The translations under genes were made by a program, and so were the position numbers. The notes under the pieces were generated by a model. That model was not told where the DNA came from, ran no database searches, and saw only the letters and a program-made list of their open reading frames with translations. Source: an uncultured Sphingomonadaceae bacterium (GTDB taxonomy: Bacteria; Pseudomonadota; Alphaproteobacteria; Sphingomonadales; Sphingomonadaceae). From it: a DNA stretch of 64,000 bases. This document shows positions 289-9,463 of the stretch, in pieces. Every line of letters begins with the position of its first letter. The stretch's first letter is position 1. The DNA is taken from the NCBI GenBank assembly GCA_947501695.1, contig CANMWO010000002.1, positions 434,001 to 498,000 on the forward strand, given 5' to 3'.

Positions 289-2682
289 ATGAGCGATACA
301 AAACGCGTGGAATGGACAAAGCCTTATGGCGGTCTAGCACTCACATTTGGAGTAATAATCCCCGGGATTACAATCTTGATCGAACTCGTCACGCAGATGT
401 GTGCAGATGCGTTTTTTGATCCCCTGCCTACTTGGCCGATGACATTGCTGGTCGCGGCAGTACCGATAGCCAATTTACATCTTTGGTATGCTTCTCGTTC
501 GGAAGCCAACGTGTCTCCGTGGGCATTGCGGTTCTATGGGGCAACCCTCCTGATTTCCCTCATATACGCGTTGATCATGTTGCCGCTCTATCCGCTTGCC
601 GTGATAGGCATCATATATTTCGGTATCGGCCTGCTGCCCATGGCGCCTTTGTTCACTGCGATATTCATGGGGCTCGGTATCAGCCGATTATCTGAAGTGC
701 ATTCTAGCATCTGGAAGCATTTTTTCACTGGAATGGGTATCGGCCTTGTTTTGCTAATCGCTGCTGATCTTCCCACCAGTGCAACCCGAATCGCCATTAA
801 CATGGCTGAAAAAAGCGATGACACCGATGCAGCGACATTGATGCGGTGGATCGGTAGCGAAGATGACTTGCTTCGCCTCGCCCACGGCGCAACCGGCCGT
901 GCTGGCGGACTTAGTAGTATAATCTTGACCGGTGAGTGGGGCTTCGACCTTTGGGGTAATGGTTTGGCAAATGAAACCATGACAGCCCGGCGGCTCTATT
1001 TCCGGACGACAGGGCGTGCGTATAATAGCAGTGAAAATGCTGGCATCTTAAAAACTGGCAGACAACGTTGGATTTGGGATGGCGATCAAGGCGGTGACGT
1101 CGTGGGCGGCCATGTTGACACGTTATCTTTGGTAAGTTCTCGCATTGATGGCTCCATCTCGGCTGGGAATAACGTCGCCTATAGCGAATGGACGGTGGAA
1201 ATTGCCAACAAGGATAGCCGAGGCGGCGAAGCACGTTTCACTATGGTTCTTCCCGAAGGTGGTGTTGCTTCTAGAGCAACTCTTTGGATCAATGGTGAAC
1301 CGCGCGAAGCGAGCATCGCGGGCCGCGCAGAAGTGAAAGCGGCCTATAAAAAGATTGTGCAACGCCAACGCGACCCCTTGCTGGTAACAACCTCGGGCAA
1401 CGGTCGATTACTGGTTCAGGCTTTTCCGGTGCCGGCTAATGGTGTGATGAAATTCAGGATCGGCTTTTCCGCTCCCCTTTCAATCGCCAACGATGGAGCA
1501 CGTTCCATTGCCATGCCGGCAATCGTTGAACAGAATTTTCGCATCACAGACGATTTGAAGCACAGCATCTGGATGGAAGGTGACATTCCAATACGCCAAA
1601 CAGGCTGGGCGGTTAGTACAGCCAAAGACGGCGCAACGAGGCTGCGTGCGTCGCTCGAAGATCAGGAATTACGCTTGAAGCGCCCGCGTATCATGGCGGA
1701 AAAAATTGATGGCCCCGTTTTCATGACGGCAACGATAGACTCTGGAAAAAAAGGGCCGCTTGTTGCGGTTCAACAGAGTATTACGAGGAAGCGGGGCAAC
1801 AGCTTGGGTGGCATCACTATTCTGCTCGATGGATCGACGTCCAACGAAAATGCCGCAGAAGCGCTGTCTGATGCCCTGGATGGAATAGCGACGAAAACTC
1901 CGGTTGGGTTATTAATCGCTGCGGATGATCCGATCATAGTTGATCGTGCGCCATGGTCCGAAACGCAAAAGGCCAAATTTGTTGACGCCATTGCTGATGC
2001 GGATTTTGTTGGCGGAATTGACAATATACCGACACTTGTCAATGCGCTCGAGAATAGCTTGGGCGGCGAAGACGTTATATTATGGGTTCACGGTCCACAG
2101 CCTGTTGAATTCGCGGCATCGAAATCTGTGCTCGAACAATCTCTGGAACGTGGCGGGGCGGTCAAACCGAAATTGCTACGCTATCAAGCGACGCCCGGGC
2201 GTACATTTACAGTGCAAGGAGCGGCCATATTTGAAACAGCGCGAGAGGTTTCGCCGAGCGGGAATGTGGAAACCGATTTGCGTGCTTTGCTCTCAGACAT
2301 CACATCCACAGAACCGAGCTGGCAGATTGAACGCTCTGCCACCCAAAAAGAAGGGCCTGGATCTCCGCATATAGTCCGACTTTGGGCTGCAAAGGAGTTG
2401 GCAATCGCTGCGCTCTATGAGGGTGAAGAACGGGAGCAGGCGATTAATCTGGCGTACCAACTGAACATCATCACCCCGGTTAGCGGTGCTGTGGTTCTGG
2501 AGACCGATCAAAATTATGATGAGAACGGTCTACCCGTACCCTCTTCCGATGAAGTGCCTAGCGTACCCGAACCGCATGAATGGGCGTTGATCATCTTGCT
2601 GATATTGTTTGTCGGCTGGGCCATCAGGCGCAGAGGTTATTCGTTAGACCAGCTCTTCTCCAGACCACTAGCAAGTACATGA
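289..2682 (+). CDS. Polytopic VIT-domain protein with C-terminal PEP-CTERM sorting signal
   Basis: A 797-residue membrane protein. Residues 14-165 hold about four or five hydrophobic segments. A large extracytoplasmic part follows, with a VIT (vault/inter-alpha-trypsin) domain at roughly 299-395. Near the C-terminus is a PEP-CTERM tripartite signal: VPEP at 759-762, a hydrophobic helix, then Arg-Arg-Arg at 780-782. Most PEP-CTERM proteins have only a signal peptide plus the C-terminal helix; a multi-spanning form resembles the PEP_integral (TIGR02921) type. About 15 residues follow the Arg cluster, more than usual. The stop overlaps the exosortase start (ATGA), which points to translational coupling and a dedicated sortase-substrate pair. 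The biochemical role is unknown. Confidence 0.8.
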   Translation: MSDTKRVEWTKPYGGLALTFGVIIPGITILIELVTQMCADAFFDPLPTWPMTLLVAAVPIANLHLWYASRSEANVSPWALRFYGATLLISLIYALIMLPLYPLAVIGIIYFGIGLLPMAPLFTAIFMGLGISRLSEVHSSIWKHFFTGMGIGLVLLIAADLPTSATRIAINMAEKSDDTDAATLMRWIGSEDDLLRLAHGATGRAGGLSSIILTGEWGFDLWGNGLANETMTARRLYFRTTGRAYNSSENAGILKTGRQRWIWDGDQGGDVVGGHVDTLSLVSSRIDGSISAGNNVAYSEWTVEIANKDSRGGEARFTMVLPEGGVASRATLWINGEPREASIAGRAEVKAAYKKIVQRQRDPLLVTTSGNGRLLVQAFPVPANGVMKFRIGFSAPLSIANDGARSIAMPAIVEQNFRITDDLKHSIWMEGDIPIRQTGWAVSTAKDGATRLRASLEDQELRLKRPRIMAEKIDGPVFMTATIDSGKKGPLVAVQQSITRKRGNSLGGITILLDGSTSNENAAEALSDALDGIATKTPVGLLIAADDPIIVDRAPWSETQKAKFVDAIADADFVGGIDNIPTLVNALENSLGGEDVILWVHGPQPVEFAASKSVLEQSLERGGAVKPKLLRYQATPGRTFTVQGAAIFETAREVSPSGNVETDLRALLSDITSTEPSWQIERSATQKEGPGSPHIVRLWAAKELAIAALYEGEEREQAINLAYQLNIITPVSGAVVLETDQNYDENGLPVPSSDEVPSVPEPHEWALIILLILFVGWAIRRRGYSLDQLFSRPLAST

Positions 2683-3464
2683 TTCAGGCACGTTATGCCG
2701 TGTTGCTTCTGGCGGCCGCATATTGGGATGCTTGGCGCTTGCTCATTGGACGGATTGGTGACGGAGCGGCTGCAATTCCCATTTTGATATTGTTGGTCGG
2801 CTTTGCGATTGCCTGGATCAAGCTAACGACTGACCGCCGGGTTCCTGCAATTTTGGTGGGTATCGTCCTTGCCGCATTTATCATCGTTTCAATATGGGGG
2901 ACAGCAATGATCAAAATTGGTGTCGCCTTGATTGCAATCATGATGGTTGTCCATCGCGGATTTGGGGGAAAAAGGCCACCCTTCGCAGCAATCGGTGTTG
3001 GCCTGATGGCACTCCCAATATTACCATCACTTGATTTCTATCTGGCTTGGCCGATGCGCCAATTGTCTGCAACATTAACCGCCGGACTGTTGAGATTAAA
3101 CGGATTCTCCGTGCATGTCGAAGGTGTTGCAATCGCATGGCAGGATCAACTGCTGCTGTTTGATGGCCCATGCAGCGGTATCAGAATGCTATGGGCCGCA
3201 TTGTTACTGACCAGCATATTATCGCTGATCGGCCGGATTGGTGCATGGCGTTACGGAGCCGCATTGGTCATCACAGCGGTTCTTGCAATCTTTGCCAACG
3301 CTTTGCGCGCGGCGAGCTTATTCTATCTGGAAACCGGATTTGTTCCAAGAATGGAAGGGCCAGTTTTTCATGAACTGGTTGGCATATCATCCTTCGTTAT
3401 GCTGGGAGTGTTGCTGGTCTATGGATTTTACAAGCAGGATGAAAGGATGCCAAAATGCGCCTGA
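2679..3464 (+). CDS. Exosortase (EpsH/Xrt family)
   Basis: Integral membrane transpeptidase-like enzyme expected to cleave PEP-CTERM proteins. The start at 2679 gives 261 residues and overlaps the upstream stop by four bases. All three family hallmarks are visible: the catalytic Cys165 in GPCSGIRML, Arg210 in ANALRAAS, and His231 in FHELVG. About eight hydrophobic segments span the protein. It lies between a PEP-CTERM protein and an EpsI-like protein, with no exopolysaccharide genes nearby, so it is probably a narrow-target exosortase; I cannot assign the Xrt subtype. It overlaps the next gene by 10 bases. Confidence 0.88.
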   Translation: MIQARYAVLLLAAAYWDAWRLLIGRIGDGAAAIPILILLVGFAIAWIKLTTDRRVPAILVGIVLAAFIIVSIWGTAMIKIGVALIAIMMVVHRGFGGKRPPFAAIGVGLMALPILPSLDFYLAWPMRQLSATLTAGLLRLNGFSVHVEGVAIAWQDQLLLFDGPCSGIRMLWAALLLTSILSLIGRIGAWRYGAALVITAVLAIFANALRAASLFYLETGFVPRMEGPVFHELVGISSFVMLGVLLVYGFYKQDERMPKCA

Positions 3465-3967
3465 TCATTCTCGCTATTCTAACCGGTGGAGCCGCGTTTT
3501 CGCCATTGGTGCCCGAAAAGGAAAGCGGAGCGAAAATACCCTCTTCCTGGCCAACTCAGTTTGACGAGAAAATCCTGTCGCCCTTGCCGGCAGCTGCGGC
3601 TGATAGATATTTCCAAAACGGGTTTCCTGGCCATGTTGCTCGTTTTTCCGACGGGCGGAGACAGATTGTTTTGCGGCAAGTGAATGAAGCAACCCGAAAA
3701 CTCCACCCGGCCCGCGATTGCTTTCAGGCACTGGGATATACCATCGATAATGCTGCCATGGAGCGTACGGACCAGAGACAGGCGCGATCCTGCTTTGATG
3801 CCGCGAAAGACGGCAAAACCCTCCGCATCTGTGAGGCGGTGACAGATGCGGAAGGCAATAGCTTTCCTGAAGTGTCAGCTTGGTACTGGCCGGCTCTTAC
3901 CGGTCAATCAAAGGGACCATGGCTCGCCGCGACGACAGTCGAAACTGTCAACCGCTCGACACCATGA
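3455..3967 (+). CDS. EpsI-like exosortase-associated protein
   Basis: A 170-residue protein with one N-terminal hydrophobic segment, probably exported. The stretch LHPARDCFQALGYTI resembles the EpsI signature in which a Pro and a Cys precede a Gly-rich turn, and the C-terminal part (SAWYWPAL, GPWLAATTVE) fits the beta-rich end of EpsI-like domains. EpsI-like proteins accompany or are fused to exosortases. An AAAGGA Shine-Dalgarno sequence precedes the ATG, which lies inside the exosortase gene. Its 3' end overlaps the convergent rtcA gene by 20 bases. The call rests on motif resemblance plus position. Confidence 0.6.
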   Translation: MRLIILAILTGGAAFSPLVPEKESGAKIPSSWPTQFDEKILSPLPAAAADRYFQNGFPGHVARFSDGRRQIVLRQVNEATRKLHPARDCFQALGYTIDNAAMERTDQRQARSCFDAAKDGKTLRICEAVTDAEGNSFPEVSAWYWPALTGQSKGPWLAATTVETVNRSTP

Positions 3968-4961
3968 ACACGCCGTTTTCTTGCTGATCAAATTCGAATT
4001 TTCGACCCGTGAAACGTTCAATGATGTCAGCGCCGGTTCTTGCATGCTGGCTGGGCTTCACCGTTGTAAATGATCCTCCACCCGCAAGGGCAAATGGGAG
4101 AAGCAGCTGATCCGCAAGATAGGGACCCGCAAAAGCATCGCTTTCCATATAACCCTTCATCCGGTTAGCCGCCGTTTTTGCAAGCCGTTCAGCTTTCAGA
4201 CCCAGCTTGCCAAAGCCGCCTACCACTTCAGTAACATGCTCATATTCGGCCTCAAGAAGCAGAATATTCCCCGGCCCCTGATCTTCGGGAAGCTGACGTA
4301 CACCAATGACATCTTCATCCCATTGCAGAACTTTTCGGGCTGCTTTTACTTCGCGTTCCGCCACTTCTTGGGGCAGTCCCGTGAACATTGCCGTTCCGAT
4401 GACTGAGCGTAGTTCGCCGCGATCAATACAATCCATCCGCTTTAGCGGTGCTGGATCGATATCAATCTCGATTTTACCACCACCACGTGGATAGAAGCCG
4501 TGGCGCACCAGTCGCGCAGAGACTTTTGGTCCCATACGATTGATAATCGGTAGGAACGATCGTTCTATAAAATCAAACGGAGGGGCGAGCATATTATGAG
4601 TGCCCCCTTCCAGCGTGATATGCGAAGCTGTGTCTGCGTATAAAAGCGGCGGAAGAACCGTTTGCAGGACTAGATTTGTGCTGCCTGCCGTACCAACCGC
4701 AAACTTGTAGTTTCCGGCCTTCGTTTTTCCAGGCCGAAAAGTGATTTCGGAGGCACCCACAGCGAGGCCTTCGCAAACGGATTCGCTAATCGCACAGACG
4801 GCTTCAAGTGCTGTCACATGCTGACGCATCATCCCGGTCTTCTCGCGCTTACCGCGAATATTTGTAATCTGAAAAGGCTCTCCAGTGATAAGCGAGAGCG
4901 ATGCAGAGGTTCTGAGAACCTGTCCGCCGCCTTCGCCTTCTGAGCCATCAATAATAATCAT
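3948..4961 (-). CDS. rtcA: RNA 3'-terminal phosphate cyclase
   Basis: RtcA converts RNA 3'-phosphates to 2',3'-cyclic phosphates using ATP through a covalent RtcA-(histidinyl)-AMP intermediate. The 337-residue length is normal. Family signatures seen: N-terminal IDGSEGEGGGQVLRTS, RGKREKTGMMRQH, YPRGGGKIE in the middle, and the nucleophile His306 in PSQHARTGAD near the C-terminus. It is the last gene of a minus-strand operon after rtcB and an RlaP-type nucleotidyltransferase, overlapping the latter by four bases. Expression is probably under the sigma-54/RtcR control seen upstream of rtcB. Confidence 0.95.
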   Translation of the reverse strand: MIIIDGSEGEGGGQVLRTSASLSLITGEPFQITNIRGKREKTGMMRQHVTALEAVCAISESVCEGLAVGASEITFRPGKTKAGNYKFAVGTAGSTNLVLQTVLPPLLYADTASHITLEGGTHNMLAPPFDFIERSFLPIINRMGPKVSARLVRHGFYPRGGGKIEIDIDPAPLKRMDCIDRGELRSVIGTAMFTGLPQEVAEREVKAARKVLQWDEDVIGVRQLPEDQGPGNILLLEAEYEHVTEVVGGFGKLGLKAERLAKTAANRMKGYMESDAFAGPYLADQLLLPFALAGGGSFTTVKPSQHARTGADIIERFTGRKFEFDQQENGVFMVSSG

Positions 4962-5758
4962 GAGTTCACCAGTTCTAAAAATATCTCTTCGGCACGCGCG
5001 TAGAATCTATCGTCTTCCCTTGATTTTCCGGAAACTTCAGACGCGCGGCCCAATTCATTGTTTATAAGCGTATCGACTAGCGGTTTCCGCGCGCCATTGC
5101 TCTTTTCGTTTGTTGTCTTTTTGGCTTCAACCAATTCATCGATATCAGCAACCAAGCTATCTGTTAGGTCACTGGCATCAATCAATGCTTGCAGGTTCAT
5201 TGGCGGTCTTTGGCCAGGGCGATTGCGCAGAAAACGGATCGCTAGGGCTGGCCGCAAAGAATAGAAGTATTTTTTGACAGGGACGTCGCCCTCAACTTCT
5301 ATCCAGCGCTGTGCATTGTTCCGTCCAAGATTGGCGTAATGATGTGCCAAAGCCCGGCCGTCAAATACCTGATCAGCCAATGTCCCTAAAGCATCCACAA
5401 CGGGATGATCCTGCCGATATCGGATCGGCGATTCAATCCATTCGCTAACTACGGCATTGGATTTCATTAAAAGACCAAGGCCTTTACGAATGTCCCAGCC
5501 ATTGAGATCAATCTCATCCAAGATTGGTTGTTCGATTACATCCCGTCCGGGACGTAGGCTCAGATACCAATCGCGTGTCCGGACATAGATAAATCGCACG
5601 TCATAATCGCTATCAGGTGAAGGAAACCCCCACGCCCGCGACCCGGACTCAACAGCCATTAATATGCGGACATTTTCTTCAGTTTCGATTTTGGCAAGAC
5701 GGCTTTCAATCTCTGTCTGAACGCCCATTGGAATGGTGTCGATTTTGATGTGCGACAT
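4958..5758 (-). CDS. RlaP-type nucleotidyltransferase of RNA-repair operon
   Basis: A 266-residue DNA-polymerase-beta-superfamily nucleotidyltransferase (PF10127/COG3541 type). The active-site signature GSRAWGFPSPDSDYDV (residues about 39-54) contains the Gly-Ser pair and the paired Asp metal ligands. This family, called RlaP, recurs beside RNA ligases and is thought to act on RNA ends, perhaps adding nucleotides during repair; the exact reaction is not established as far as I know. It sits 30 bases after rtcB and overlaps rtcA by four bases, so the three are probably co-transcribed. GGGAA serves as a Shine-Dalgarno sequence. Confidence 0.85.
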   Translation of the reverse strand: MSHIKIDTIPMGVQTEIESRLAKIETEENVRILMAVESGSRAWGFPSPDSDYDVRFIYVRTRDWYLSLRPGRDVIEQPILDEIDLNGWDIRKGLGLLMKSNAVVSEWIESPIRYRQDHPVVDALGTLADQVFDGRALAHHYANLGRNNAQRWIEVEGDVPVKKYFYSLRPALAIRFLRNRPGQRPPMNLQALIDASDLTDSLVADIDELVEAKKTTNEKSNGARKPLVDTLINNELGRASEVSGKSREDDRFYARAEEIFLELVNS

Positions 5759-5788: not shown

Positions 5789-7015
5789 TCATCCCTTCAC
5801 ACACACAACCTGTTTCAGCGTATGGACAATCTCGACGAGATCATCCTGCGCGGCCATGACCGCTTCGATAGGCTTATAGACCTTTGGCGTTTCATCGAGC
5901 ACACCGATATCCTTCCGGCATTCAACGCCTTTGGTATCTTCAATATGCTCTTCCAGCGTCACTGCTTTCTTGGCCTCGGTCCGCGACATCACGCGGCCAG
6001 CGCCATGGCTGCAGCTTTCAAAGGACTCCCGGTTTCCGAGGCCCCGAACAATGAACGATTTTGCGCCCATTGATCCTGGAATAATGCCCATCATGCCCTT
6101 GGAGGCACGCACGGCACCTTTCCGGGTGATGAGAACATCTTCACCAAAATGCCGTTCCCGATTGACGTAGTTATGGTGGCAGTTAATCGCCTCCATTTCC
6201 GCATCAAACGGTTTTGCAATCTGACTGCGCAGCGCCTTGATGACATTTTTCATCATCATCTGGCGGTTTGCCGCGGCAAAATCCTGTGCCCAGCCCACCG
6301 CCTCGACATAGTCATCGAAATGGTCGGTCCCTTCCGGGAAATAGGCCAGATTCTGATCCGGCAGATTGATATGCCATTTGCGCATATCTTGCTTGGCCAG
6401 TTCAATGAACTGCGAGCCAATGGCGTTACCTACGCCCCGCGAACCACTGTGCAGCATCACCCACACCCGGTCTTCGGTATCAAGGCATAGTTCAATAAAG
6501 TGGTTGCCTGTACCGAGCGTACCGAGATGCGCGATGTTATTGGTGTTCTTAAACCGAGGATATTTGTCCGTGATCCGATCAAAACGCGCAGACAGCGGCG
6601 CCCATGCATCGGTGATCTCATTTGTAGCATCACCCCATGAACCTTTGTCCCGCCGACCCCGACCTACCGACCGGCCATGTGGCACGGCAGCTTCGATCGC
6701 ACTCCGAATGCCTTCCAGATTATCCGGAAGGTCACTTGCCATAAGCGAAGTTTGAGCGGCCATCATGCCGCAACCAATATCAACACCAACGGCGGCTGGA
6801 ATAACAGCGCCCTTGGTTGGAATAACCGAACCAATGGTCGCGCCGATGCCGATATGGACATCGGGCATGACTGCAAGATGGCCGAAGATAAATGGCATCT
6901 GCGCCGCTTTTGAAAGCTGAACGCGGGCTCCATCATCAACTGGGACACCGCGTGTCCACATTTTGATCGGGTGTCCGCCTTCAACGTCCAAATATTCATA
7001 TTTTGTATCGACCAT
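5789..7015 (-). CDS. rtcB: RNA-splicing ligase RtcB
   Basis: GTP- and Mn-dependent ligase joining RNA 2',3'-cyclic phosphate or 3'-phosphate ends to 5'-OH ends. I chose the ATG at 7015 (408 residues, as in E. coli) over one six codons upstream, because AAGGAG lies eight bases before it. Metal and catalytic residues are all present: Asp79 and Cys82 in GVDIGCG, His172 in GTGNHFIEL, His189 in LHSGSRG, His280/281 in NCHHNYV, and His337 in CSHGAGR, the residue guanylylated in the family. The tRNA at 7078-7153 and the sigma-54 promoter at 7253-7269 lie directly upstream. Confidence 0.96.
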   Translation of the reverse strand: MVDTKYEYLDVEGGHPIKMWTRGVPVDDGARVQLSKAAQMPFIFGHLAVMPDVHIGIGATIGSVIPTKGAVIPAAVGVDIGCGMMAAQTSLMASDLPDNLEGIRSAIEAAVPHGRSVGRGRRDKGSWGDATNEITDAWAPLSARFDRITDKYPRFKNTNNIAHLGTLGTGNHFIELCLDTEDRVWVMLHSGSRGVGNAIGSQFIELAKQDMRKWHINLPDQNLAYFPEGTDHFDDYVEAVGWAQDFAAANRQMMMKNVIKALRSQIAKPFDAEMEAINCHHNYVNRERHFGEDVLITRKGAVRASKGMMGIIPGSMGAKSFIVRGLGNRESFESCSHGAGRVMSRTEAKKAVTLEEHIEDTKGVECRKDIGVLDETPKVYKPIEAVMAAQDDLVEIVHTLKQVVCVKG

Positions 7016-7077
7016 TGCAGGTCTCCTTATCATATTCTTTAGCAGCCAAGGGCCACATGGATAGGATCATAAAAATC

Positions 7078-7153
7078 TGGTCAGGACGGCTGGACTTGAA
7101 CCAACAACATCATGCTTCCAAAGCACACGCTCTACCGATTGAACTACATCCTG
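7078..7153 (-). tRNA. tRNA-like gene, anticodon UGG (Pro), in leader of rtcB operon
   Basis: Folds into a full 76-nt cloverleaf with encoded CCA (7078-7080): acceptor CAGGATG/CGTCCTG with C1-G72 and A73; D-stem GTTC/GAGC; anticodon stem TGTGC/GCATG with two G-U pairs; loop TTTGGAA placing UGG at 7118-7120; T-arm GTTGG-TTCAAGT-CCAGC. C1-G72, A73, G35 and G36 are Pro identity features, but position 37 is A where tRNA-Pro normally has G. From memory, the D-arm and variable region look closer to tRNA-Trp. It sits 62 bases upstream of rtcB and downstream of a sigma-54 promoter. It may be a working tRNA, a substrate or decoy for the repair system, or a regulatory tRNA-like RNA. Confidence 0.8.
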
Positions 7154-7158
7154 CTTTT

Positions 7159-7203
7159 GGAAACCTCGGGAGCGGCTGGCCCATTCCAGCCGCTCCGGTT
7201 TCC
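7159..7203 (-). ncRNA. Strong hairpin directly 5' of the rtcB-leader tRNA
   Basis: In the minus-strand RNA an 18-bp stem forms: 7 bp (GGAAACC/GGTTTCC) plus 11 bp (GGAGCGGCTGG/CCAGCCGCTCC), separated by a three-base bulge on one side, with a six-base loop. Five bases (AAAAG) separate it from the first base of the tRNA. No U-tract follows, so it is not an obvious intrinsic terminator. Together with the tRNA it would make a structured RNA of about 165 nt from the predicted start near 7243. Y-RNAs of some RNA-repair operons also combine a long stem with a tRNA-like part; any homology here is inference. Confidence 0.6.
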
Positions 7204-7252
7204 GCCTCATCCGGTTGACCATGTTTGCTCAATCAATCGGACGCTCATAGCA

Positions 7253-7269
7253 TTGCAGCGACCGTGCCA
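7253..7269 (-). promoter_or_regulatory. Sigma-54 promoter of the RNA-repair operon
   Basis: Read on the minus strand the site is TGGCACG-GTCG-CTGCAA. This matches the sigma-54 (RpoN) consensus TGGCACG-N4-TTGC at every position except the first T of the -12 element, with exact GG-to-GC spacing. Transcription would start near 7243 and run through the hairpin, the tRNA, rtcB, the RlaP gene and rtcA. The adjacent divergent gene is the sigma-54 activator rtcR, which controls such operons in E. coli. Confidence 0.88.
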
Positions 7270-7417: not shown

Positions 7418-9016
7418 ATGAAACCTCTCGTTGTCATTGGATTTTTGGGCTCCACGCTCGATGCAGCAAAGTTTGGGCCGTCGCGGTGGAATAAATGGCG
7501 GCCATCCCTGTCAATTGTCATGCAAGAAGATTTGCGCGTTGATCGCTTCGTCCTTTTACATGGAAAGCTGCATAACCGGCTGGCTGATCAAATTGCGGAA
7601 GACATTGAATCAGTTTCGCCCGAGACCACGGTGGATCAGAAATTCTTGGAATTTGACGATCCGTGGGAATTTGAGGAGGTTTATGGCAAGCTTCTCGACT
7701 TTGCCCGGGGCTATCCATTTGACCCTGACAAAGAAGATTATCTGATACACATCACGACTGGCACGCACGTGGCGCAAATTTGTCTCTTCCTGTTAACCGA
7801 AGCGCGTTATTTGCCGGGCCGCTTACTGCAGACGCAACCGGGCGGGAGTGTGAAGGGTAATGTCCTCGGCCGTGTCAGCATGATAGACTTGGATCTTTCC
7901 CGCTACGACAGCATCGCTTCGCGCTTTTCGATCCAAACGGCAGAGGATTCATCCTTCCTTAAATCCGGTATCGAGACGAAGAACATAGCATTCAACACGT
8001 TGATTGATGAGATAGAACAAGTCGCGGGGCGATCCAAAGCACCTATTCTGCTAACTGGTCCAACGGGTGCGGGCAAAAGCCAATTGGCACGCCGTATCTA
8101 CGAACTGAAAAAACTCAAGCATCAGGTTTCCGGCAGCTTTGTTGAAGTAAACTGTGCGACCCTGCGCGGCGACAGCGCCATGTCCGCTCTGTTTGGTCAT
8201 ACCAAAGGGGCCTTTACAGGCGCTGCTACTGAAAGAGCGGGGCTTTTGCGGACAGCCAACAAGGGTATGCTTTTCCTCGATGAGATTGGGGAGCTTGGTG
8301 CCGACGAGCAAGCAATGATATTGCGCGCGATTGAAGATAAGCGGTTTCTGCCGGTTGGCGCAGATAAGGAGGCCGATTCAGATTTTCAGTTGATTGTGGG
8401 TACCAACAAGGACCTTTCTGCAGCCGTTGCCAATGGAACGTTCCGCGATGACTTGCTTGCTCGCCTAAATCTCTGGACCTTTGCTCTTCCAGGACTTGCT
8501 GACCGTAAAGAGGATATTGAGCCCAATCTTGATTATGAGCTCGATCGCTTTGCTGAGCGAGAAGGAAATCGGGTGACATTCAATAAAGAAGCACGAGATA
8601 GATATCTGAAATTTGCAAGTTCCCCGAATGCGCTCTGGTCTGGCAACTTCCGCGATCTGGCTGCCAGCGTAACGCGAATGGCCACATTGTCTCCCGAAGG
8701 AAGAATAGGGCGGGAAACGGTTGATCTCGAAATCATGAAACTAGGCCGCCTGTGGCAAGGCGGTGTCGTCGAAAAGAACGACGGCATGCATGCATTGTTT
8801 AGCGATGAAGAGCTAAATGCGCTCGATCCATTTGATCGTGTACAGTTAGCGGAAGTTGTTAATGTCAGCCGAAATAGCAAATCAATGTCGGAAGCCGGGC
8901 GGACGTTGTTCGCGTCATCCCGTCAGCGGCGCAAAAGCGCCAATGATGCCGATCGTTTGAAAAAATATCTCGCCCGCTTTGGCTTAAGTTGGGCTGAAAT
9001 AAATGCGGAGGCATAA
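7418..9016 (+). CDS. rtcR: RtcR, CARF-domain sigma-54 activator of RNA repair
   Basis: Activates rtcBA transcription with sigma-54 RNA polymerase. I place the start at 7418 (532 residues), because alignment by eye with E. coli RtcR begins at MKPLVVIGFLGSTLD; the 28 codons upstream do not look like RtcR. Domains: an N-terminal CARF domain (1-180) with the ligand-pocket segment HITTGTHVAQI (111-121); an AAA+ domain with Walker A GPTGAGKS (214-221), the sigma-54-contacting GAFTGA loop (264-269) and Walker B GMLFLDE (283-289); and a C-terminal HTH region. The CARF domain is thought to sense cyclic-phosphate RNA ends. It is divergent from the operon it should control. Confidence 0.95.
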   Translation: MKPLVVIGFLGSTLDAAKFGPSRWNKWRPSLSIVMQEDLRVDRFVLLHGKLHNRLADQIAEDIESVSPETTVDQKFLEFDDPWEFEEVYGKLLDFARGYPFDPDKEDYLIHITTGTHVAQICLFLLTEARYLPGRLLQTQPGGSVKGNVLGRVSMIDLDLSRYDSIASRFSIQTAEDSSFLKSGIETKNIAFNTLIDEIEQVAGRSKAPILLTGPTGAGKSQLARRIYELKKLKHQVSGSFVEVNCATLRGDSAMSALFGHTKGAFTGAATERAGLLRTANKGMLFLDEIGELGADEQAMILRAIEDKRFLPVGADKEADSDFQLIVGTNKDLSAAVANGTFRDDLLARLNLWTFALPGLADRKEDIEPNLDYELDRFAEREGNRVTFNKEARDRYLKFASSPNALWSGNFRDLAASVTRMATLSPEGRIGRETVDLEIMKLGRLWQGGVVEKNDGMHALFSDEELNALDPFDRVQLAEVVNVSRNSKSMSEAGRTLFASSRQRRKSANDADRLKKYLARFGLSWAEINAEA

Positions 9017-9022
9017 CAACGC

Positions 9023-9463
9023 ATGAAAACGATATTATTCGATATTGATGGGACGCTTGCCAATATCGAGCACAGACGCAATTACGTCGCCAAAGATAAA
9101 CCGGACTGGAAATCCTTCAATGCGGAGATGGGCGGAGATATCCCCAATGCACCGATCGTGGCATTGTATAAATCCCTTTGGGCATCGGACGCCTATGAAC
9201 TCATTCTGGTAACCGGACGAAATGAACGTTCAAGAGTACTGACGGAGCAATGGCTTGCCTGGAACGAGATTCCATTCGATCAAATATTGATGCGACCTGA
9301 CAATGATTTCAGAGCCGATCACATCATCAAGGAAGAGATTTTAAATCACTTATTGGCTGCAGGAAAAGCGATCGAATTTGTTGTCGATGATCGTCAGCAA
9401 GTTGTCGACATGTGGCGCCGCAATGGGATCACTTGTTTGCAATGCGATGTTGGCGATTTCTAA
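9023..9463 (+). CDS. HAD phosphatase of polynucleotide 3'-phosphatase type
   Basis: A 146-residue HAD-superfamily protein without a large cap. Motif I FDIDGTLANI has both catalytic Asp residues (7 and 9), motif II is LVTGRNE, and motif IV is VVDDRQQVVDMW. This compact form with the E-x-R-x-x-Y segment after motif I resembles the 3'-phosphatase domain of T4 polynucleotide kinase. It starts six bases after rtcR with a GGAGG upstream, so it belongs to the same transcript. It probably removes 3' or cyclic phosphates from RNA ends, complementing RtcA/RtcB; the substrate is inferred from context. Confidence 0.78.
   Translation: MKTILFDIDGTLANIEHRRNYVAKDKPDWKSFNAEMGGDIPNAPIVALYKSLWASDAYELILVTGRNERSRVLTEQWLAWNEIPFDQILMRPDNDFRADHIIKEEILNHLLAAGKAIEFVVDDRQQVVDMWRRNGITCLQCDVGDF

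Follow-up and report, generated by a model that had tools for sequence, protein, structure and literature searches.

What is a complete tRNA gene doing at the head of an RNA-repair operon? The question is raised by a 64,000-nucleotide stretch of the genome of an uncultured Sphingomonadaceae bacterium (contig CANMWO010000002.1, positions 434,001 to 498,000; here called the window, with coordinates given within it unless a locus is named), in which a gene for tRNA-Pro(UGG) stands in the leader of an operon for the RNA ligase RtcB and the RNA 3'-terminal phosphate cyclase RtcA, beside the gene for the sensor and sigma-54 activator RtcR. The order on the minus strand is a sigma-54 element, a predicted first hairpin, a second hairpin, the bases AAAAG, tRNA-Pro(UGG), rtcB, the gene for the RNA-repair nucleotidyltransferase RlaP, and rtcA; the opposite strand carries rtcR and a gene for a PNKP-type phosphatase, as judged by Pfam. 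With rtcR divergent from rtcB and rtcA and a sigma-54 element between them, the locus has the layout of an RtcR-controlled operon. The reading favored here, with a probability of roughly 0.4, is that the leader tRNA may be an emergency spare, induced by RtcR as the first product of the repair transcript. A seemingly chargeable tRNA behind the promoter of a damage sensor points to a candidate victim, namely the proline-UGG or the tryptophan tRNA.

The leader tRNA (7078 to 7153, minus strand) is called tRNA-Pro(tgg) by ARAGORN at 7153-7078 and matches the Rfam tRNA family with 59.6 bits (gathering score 29), an assignment that the covariation seen on aligning 17 leader tRNAs also supports. It has the cloverleaf, encoded CCA, UGG anticodon, C1-G72 pair, A73, and adjacent G18 and G19 of a canonical tRNA-Pro(UGG), with A37 instead of the canonical G37. 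C1-G72 and A73 are identity elements for ProRS, and G37 is the m1G37 site of tRNA-Pro; a tRNA with A37 would be without m1G37 and is expected to promote frameshifting. The initial annotation had described a sigma-54 element, an 18-bp hairpin, five bases, a complete tRNA and rtcB in succession, and the coordinates, ARAGORN, Rfam, and Pfam agree with it; the combination of C1-G72, A73, and UGG with A37 that it had pointed out is likewise seen in the alignment. Its suggestion of a body resembling tRNA-Trp had to be given up, as none of the 37 other named tRNAs of its genome exceeds 68% identity to the window tRNA, the closest four being Met, Lys, Met, and Val (66 to 68%) with no Trp among them, and a phage tRNA-Pro came closest of the sequences found.

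The genome has proline tRNA genes besides this one. An ordinary tRNA-Pro(UGG) with G37 is present elsewhere (L016), which disposes of the possibility that the leader gene is the only one of its kind, and there is also a tRNA-Pro(GGG). The genome yielded 40 Rfam tRNA matches, and ARAGORN named 38 tRNAs, including the leader tRNA; no tRNA-Pro(CGG) is among these 38, in a seven-contig assembly that may miss some. Pro-UGG and Trp each have a single housekeeping gene among the named tRNAs, as do many other anticodons, and CCA and CCG together make up 315 of the 510 proline codons in 25 long, automatically picked open reading frames. Elsewhere in the genome (L031; G000 contig C3, 389485-389629), two neighboring Rfam tRNA matches of 43.7 and 58.0 bits were not called by ARAGORN and may be degenerate tRNAs or belong to mobile elements.

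Related genomes show this arrangement again, so it is not accidental. Searches for RtcR in overlapping samples that included the window genome returned 30 of 298 family, 48 of 396 order, 12 of 385 class, and 28 of 398 phylum genomes, and a scan of named genomes confirmed at least 573 RtcR loci, of which the best 80 were kept. Loci were counted over 153 loci (L038 to L190), 138 of them distinct, with the 21 loci new from the phylum search excluded. The number of hairpin-bearing leaders depended on the script, being 90, 102 (looser patterns and weaker de-duplication), 111 of 150 (duplicates kept), or 99 of 138, the total used here, which adds eight matches to a hairpin model, two of them at an E value of 0.0022. 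By this count the second hairpin is present in 99 of 138 distinct RtcR loci, mostly from sphingomonads and also from records named Nitrospirillum, Minwuia, and Hyphomonadaceae (L078, L099, and L114). A tRNA occupies the slot 3' of the hairpin in 23 of these 99 leaders, comprising 16 intact tRNA-Pro(UGG) genes, two resembling tRNA-Trp(CCA) (L173, 2352-2424, and L175, 1145-1217; 73 nucleotides with a short D arm), and five decayed copies. The linkage at homologous loci, whose absence would have spoken for an accident, is thus found. The conserved pair of hairpin and tRNA that had been proposed holds in part: both elements recur in other rtc leaders, but they do not form a fixed pair, the hairpin being far commoner, the tRNA optional, and the tRNA of the Trp type in two loci. 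The first gene of the operon varies between rsr and rtcB both with and without a leader tRNA. On a tree of RtcR (114 rows), the presence or absence of the tRNA changes at least 10 times; the tree omits three short rows and 27 distant loci that are not of the sphingomonad type, and it labels as tRNA free L095 and L188, whose decayed tRNAs came to light afterward. In L072, L085, and L090, several hundred extra bases, perhaps an insertion element, separate rtcR from the hairpin, and the tRNA of L072 still adjoins rsr.

The leader tRNA-Pro sequences were aligned as a set of 17, the 16 intact copies and L040. Cloverleaf pairing is kept in 99.4% of cells, compared with 90.8% in shuffles, and 33 cells are changed on both sides, compared with 10.9 in shuffles. 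C1, G72, A73, and UGG are jointly retained in 14 of the 17. The anticodon loop differs from TTTGGGA in all 16 intact copies, 13 of which have C32 and six of which, including that of the window, have A37. Among 19 housekeeping tRNA-Pro(UGG) sequences, several of them identical, the loop is TTTGGGA in 18 and TTTGGGT in one, with T32 and G37 throughout; this sample, from which L217 (Pro-GGG) and L215 were set aside, is not random because it was drawn from BLAST matches of a leader tRNA. L215 is a different tRNA-Pro with the loop CTTGGAA, and no RtcR was found in its genome. The elbow is unusual as well in most leader copies, where an extra C separates G18 from G19. A pattern for this split D loop occurs in four of 149 family genomes, at three rtc leaders and within one open reading frame; the latter match (G123) contained no tRNA and was discarded. 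Judged by their sequences, the leader tRNAs are not copies of the housekeeping tRNA-Pro(UGG), differing in the anticodon loop (C32 and/or A37) and mostly in the elbow.

The second hairpin (7159 to 7203, minus strand) has 18 pairs with a 3-nucleotide bulge and is identified by folding and covariation. The fold of 7209-7154 has an energy of -35.0 kcal/mol (z, -5.53), and none of 200 shuffles was equally stable. Its conserved core consists of the inner 11 pairs with the loop AAUGGG. Over 82 distinct sequences, pairing is kept in 99.3% of cells, changes on both sides occur in 9 of the 11 pairs, a result matched by none of 500 shuffles, and the loop starts with AAU with few exceptions. The window hairpin (model match, 7161-7204) scores 56.3 bits by construction, because the window copy is part of the model. 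In 119 family genomes searched with strict filters, the model gave one match at an E value of 3.5e-4 or below in each of 13 RtcR-bearing genomes, all upstream of rtcR (about 0.8 kb away in G065), and several of these matched hairpins belong to the model itself; the 106 genomes without RtcR gave no match of this strength and four weaker ones (G117, G034, G043, and G099; E, 7.2e-4 to 8.6e-3). No Rfam family scored above threshold for this conserved RNA element, and the tRNA family is the only one that passes at the leader; subthreshold matches looked like chance, the best being Chlorobi-1 (19.4 bits; cut-off, 50), and a known Rfam leader was rejected. The second hairpin looks like a dedicated element of the RtcR leader, and one might guess that a repair protein binds the leader RNA or that the hairpin affects mRNA stability. 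The first hairpin (7208 to 7243, minus strand) is predicted by folding, and energy support for it is weak across leaders, with z below -2 in 19 of 83 by mononucleotide shuffles.

Upstream of the hairpins, the sequence TGGCACGGTCGCTGC at 7269-7255 (7255 to 7269, minus strand) closely resembles the -24/-12 consensus of sigma-54 promoters, and of 102 leaders searched with a loose regular expression, 83 have a similar element 5' of the hairpin. No intrinsic terminator, defined as a hairpin followed by a T run, was found between 6950 and 7500, so a terminator reading of the leader was rejected; this absence counts in favor of the leader tRNA as a spare. The same interval contains five sigma-70-like sites where 1.4 are expected.

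The sources of the leader tRNAs were sought by comparison with phage tRNAs, taken as the best matches out of 50,697 records, which biases the comparison toward phage similarity. The nearest relative found for the window tRNA is the tRNA-Pro of phage EcP1, with 81% identity compared with 71% for the nearest sampled housekeeping tRNA, and the EcP1 tRNA groups with the window clade with support of 97/90 in one tree and 92/83 in another. In 59 family genomes, the window tRNA matched only itself and one partial sequence at 77%. For the Trp leaders L173 and L175, the nearest sequence comes from Bradyrhizobium phage BDU-MI-1, a tRNA annotated as a pseudogene (81%; grouped with 100/98 support), in a comparison with one housekeeping and three phage tRNA-Trp sequences, two of which entered the tree, for which the program gave a long-branch warning. 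Most of the other Pro leaders on the tree lie closer to phage or alternative tRNAs, L038 and L072 are about equally near to both, and L073 and L074 are nearer to housekeeping tRNAs. The tRNA of L038 is 86% identical to the nearest phage-side tRNA and 85% to a housekeeping tRNA in the tree set; in the 119 family genomes its type reaches up to 86%, the best match being a housekeeping tRNA-Pro(UGG) (L201), compared with 84.6% over the full length and 86.5% over 95% of it for the best phage tRNAs. A firm claim of phage origin was therefore dropped, the L038 type being about as near to the housekeeping control as to the best phages. Independent origins of the Pro leaders were not established, since a single origin of all of them was not rejected (p-AU, 0.262; 0.395 without the window clade). 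Given these mixed similarities, it is only the Trp pair and the window clade that may have phage-type ancestry. A phage-like tRNA-Pro(UGG) with A37 was also seen at L224 (4980-5056; G003) among ordinary chromosomal genes, in a genome in which no RtcR was found.

How such a tRNA might serve the cell is suggested by work on Salmonella, in which RtcR binds and is activated by 5' tRNA halves ending in a 2',3'-cyclic phosphate and in which the tRNAs that are cleaved and become depleted upon induction of the operon include tRNA-Trp(CCA) (PMC7790460). In the favored reading, an anticodon nuclease would cut tRNAs, the resulting 5' halves with a 2',3'-cyclic phosphate would activate RtcR, and the RtcR-driven transcript would supply the repair enzymes plus a fresh tRNA, which RNase P and 3' processing would excise. 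The altered anticodon loop might let the fresh copy evade the nuclease, so that the spare would perhaps be nuclease resistant. We infer each of these functional steps for this genus. A parallel can be drawn with phages, whose tRNAs protect against tRNA-degrading defenses (PMC11555353) and whose anticodon loops have been proposed to be altered to escape them (PMC10264068), thereby rescuing translation; if the spare reading is true, the leader tRNA would be the host counterpart of the spare tRNAs that phages bring. In its favor are the two tRNA types, Pro and Trp, held by the same slot, the 18 intact copies among the 23, and the cleavage of tRNA-Trp(CCA) in Salmonella (PMC7790460), along with the cloverleaf covariation, the retained identity bases, the anticodon loops unlike those of housekeeping copies, and the gene and codon counts for proline given above. 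The bolder proposal that bacteria have placed phage-type, nuclease-resistant tRNAs under a sensor of tRNA damage, with different lineages stocking different spares (Pro-UGG or Trp-CCA), is possible but rather doubtful. If true, a single signal that tRNAs have been cut would yield both repair enzymes and an uncuttable substitute for a particular essential tRNA.

Several observations weigh against a spare tRNA. No tRNA is present in 76 of the 99 hairpin-bearing leaders, and five of the 23 leader tRNAs have decayed (L040, L076, L095, L188, and L171), so the tRNA is dispensable in places. L040, which has lost one loop base together with UGG, and L076, with an insertion in the anticodon arm, are clear cases; in L095 the model picked up a degenerate tRNA (44.6 bits), the match in L188 is weak (18.9 bits; E, 0.016), and L171 shows an acceptor-end remnant judged by eye. 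The tRNA-Trp remnant of L167 and the Pro remnant of L046, likewise seen by eye, were left out of the counts. With A37, as in the window tRNA and five further intact leaders, m1G37 would be absent, which is expected to promote frameshifting. The extra C splits G18 and G19 in 14 of the 17 leader tRNA-Pro sequences, though not in the window clade (3 of 17), and the identity bases have exceptions in L071 (U1), L068 (U73), and the anticodon of L040. The covariation is uneven, further pair types being matched by 374 of 500 shuffles and pairs changed on both sides by 17 of 500. Two weak sigma-70-like sites on the minus strand upstream of the sigma-54 element (7437-7409 and 7374-7347; 9 of 12 matches each) could in principle form a constitutive promoter that drives the tRNA. 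Finally, tRNA-shaped RNAs with abnormal anticodons occur in RtcR leaders elsewhere. In L076 (5656-5748), from Sphingobium lactosutens, the anticodon-arm insertion is predicted to fold as a hairpin of its own, and ARAGORN calls the sequence tRNA-Phe.

The occurrence of tRNA-shaped RNAs in other RtcR leaders speaks for an alternative in which the tRNA is a decoy or sensor, a tRNA-shaped bait that occupies the nuclease or is itself cut, its cyclic-phosphate 5' half sustaining RtcR in a feed-forward manner, with no decoding needed. tRNA-shaped leader RNAs were found in L226, L230, and L237, among 20 further loci from the phylum search, and in L143, among the 80 named loci; a tRNA-shaped RNA heading RtcR transcripts is therefore a recurrent feature. 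L226 and L230 (both 1062-1207) have two tandem copies without CCA, one with a short anticodon loop and one with the anticodon AAG, and L237 (2310-2524) has three, the last CCA ended with the anticodon AGT. Those of L226, L230, and L237, with short anticodon loops or A34 anticodons, resemble mimics more than tRNAs used in normal decoding, and CCA-ended tRNAs with an ordinary bacterial anticodon were seen in hairpin-bearing leaders only. L040 and L076, which retain the acceptor and T arms around a broken anticodon loop, would also suit a bait, as would the binding of 5' tRNA halves by Salmonella RtcR and the suggestion that the tRNA-like domain of the operon's RNA YrlA is a competitive inhibitor (PMC7790460). 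A bait, however, requires no Pro or Trp identity, and proline identity bases and UGG stand together in most leader copies; YrlA is uncut in Salmonella (PMC7790460), and most hairpin-bearing leaders do without a tRNA. A decoy or sensor is on balance unlikely, though a serious contender. Less is to be said for a passenger, in which case a possibly phage-type tRNA gene would be one that landed in a tolerant leader and is transcribed and repeatedly lost without consequence. The patchy distribution, the decayed copies, and the phage tRNAs among the closest sequences are what a passenger would leave behind, but compensatory changes preserve pairing across the 17 sequences, the slot between the hairpin and the first gene is constant and accepts two tRNA types, and the split D loop is confined, among tRNAs of the 149 family genomes, to rtc leaders; this explanation appears distinctly unlikely.

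Two further alternatives concern the RNA around the tRNA. The tRNA might serve to be excised, its removal by RNase P and 3' enzymes trimming the mRNA just 5' of the ribosome-binding site, or it might insulate the first gene from the hairpins. The distance from CCA to the first start codon, about 14 to 24 nucleotides in 15 of 18 intact cases, fits such a processing element, but the gap is about 62 nucleotides in L069 and in the window (62 bases to the rtcB start at 7015, with a further in-frame ATG at 7033) and longer in L177, and neither the kept Pro or Trp identity nor the many leaders without a tRNA would be explained, which makes this role improbable. Hairpins and tRNA together could instead be an analogue of Y RNAs, directing RNA decay by binding to Rsr (Ro60) or PNPase. 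The rsr gene is present in many of these operons, and Y RNAs have tRNA-like domains (PMC7790460). There is, however, no rsr within 6 kb downstream in the tRNA-bearing loci L069 and L089, rtcB directly follows the tRNA in L043 and L062, and in some operons separate Y RNA-like mimics, recognized by eye, sit between rsr and rtcB, apart from the leader tRNA. None of the window open reading frames named by Pfam is rsr, the search having covered these (tRNA-rtcB-RlaP-rtcA) and not the rest of the genome. A Y-RNA analogue is accordingly very improbable. The initial annotation had listed a replacement tRNA, a decoy, a sensor substrate, and a Y-RNA analogue side by side; the placement has proved not to be accidental and the replacement tRNA is preferred, with the other three keeping the smaller shares just described.

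Known systems resemble this leader in part. As in the rtc operon of Escherichia coli and Salmonella, rtcR adjoins and diverges from rtcB and rtcA under sigma-54 control, and the Salmonella operon likewise yields a tRNA-like RNA, YrlA (PMC7790460). Unlike that operon, the one described here begins with a complete, CCA-ended tRNA of proline identity behind a conserved hairpin, and it has RlaP and a PNKP-type phosphatase, whereas rsr was not seen among its genes. Bacterial Y RNAs of the YrlA family are also tRNA-shaped RNAs within RNA-repair operons, but the leader RNA has the anticodon arm, acceptor stem, and CCA of a complete tRNA, lies at another operon position, and is not tied to rsr. Defense-evading phage tRNAs (PMC10264068 and PMC11555353) share with it the status of an extra tRNA whose anticodon loop is altered, and among the sequences compared, phage tRNAs are the closest to the tRNAs of the window and of the Trp leaders; unlike them, the leader tRNA lies on a host chromosome beside a damage sensor and ahead of repair enzymes, and its resistance is a candidate property only. 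A Sphingobium phage carries rtcB inside a region of 24 tRNA genes (PMC5648845). The trn operon of Anabaena sp. PCC 7120 similarly comprises non-housekeeping tRNA genes with regulated expression but differs in having 26 tRNA genes on a megaplasmid that are repressed in standard culture, and no link to Rtc is seen in the part of the source consulted (PMC10272220). No description of a tRNA gene in an RtcR leader was found in the titles and abstract beginnings of the open-licence papers listed by full-text searches, a scope that leaves subscription papers mostly outside, so that an earlier mention is possible; the phrase "tRNA gene" is absent from PMC7790460.

The protein genes of the locus were assigned with Pfam. 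The first one 3' of the tRNA is rtcB (5789 to 7015, minus strand; PF01139, 431.9 bits), followed on the same strand by the genes for RlaP (4958 to 5758; PF10127, 273.3 bits) and RtcA (3948 to 4961; PF01137 and PF05189). The divergent rtcR lies at 7421 to 9016 on the plus strand (PF06956 and PF00158), and immediately 3' of it, at 9023 to 9463 on the same strand, is the gene for the PNKP-type HAD phosphatase (PF25109, 123.7 bits), which we infer to be linked to repair and which also stands 3' of rtcR in L068 and L069 but in no others of the 80 loci. L226, L230, and L237 come from other Pseudomonadota, and the next protein there resembles slipin by eye. In the window, the repair operon is adjoined at 289-3967 on the plus strand by genes for a VIT-domain protein, a protein resembling the exosortase EpsH, and a small product that has no Pfam match.
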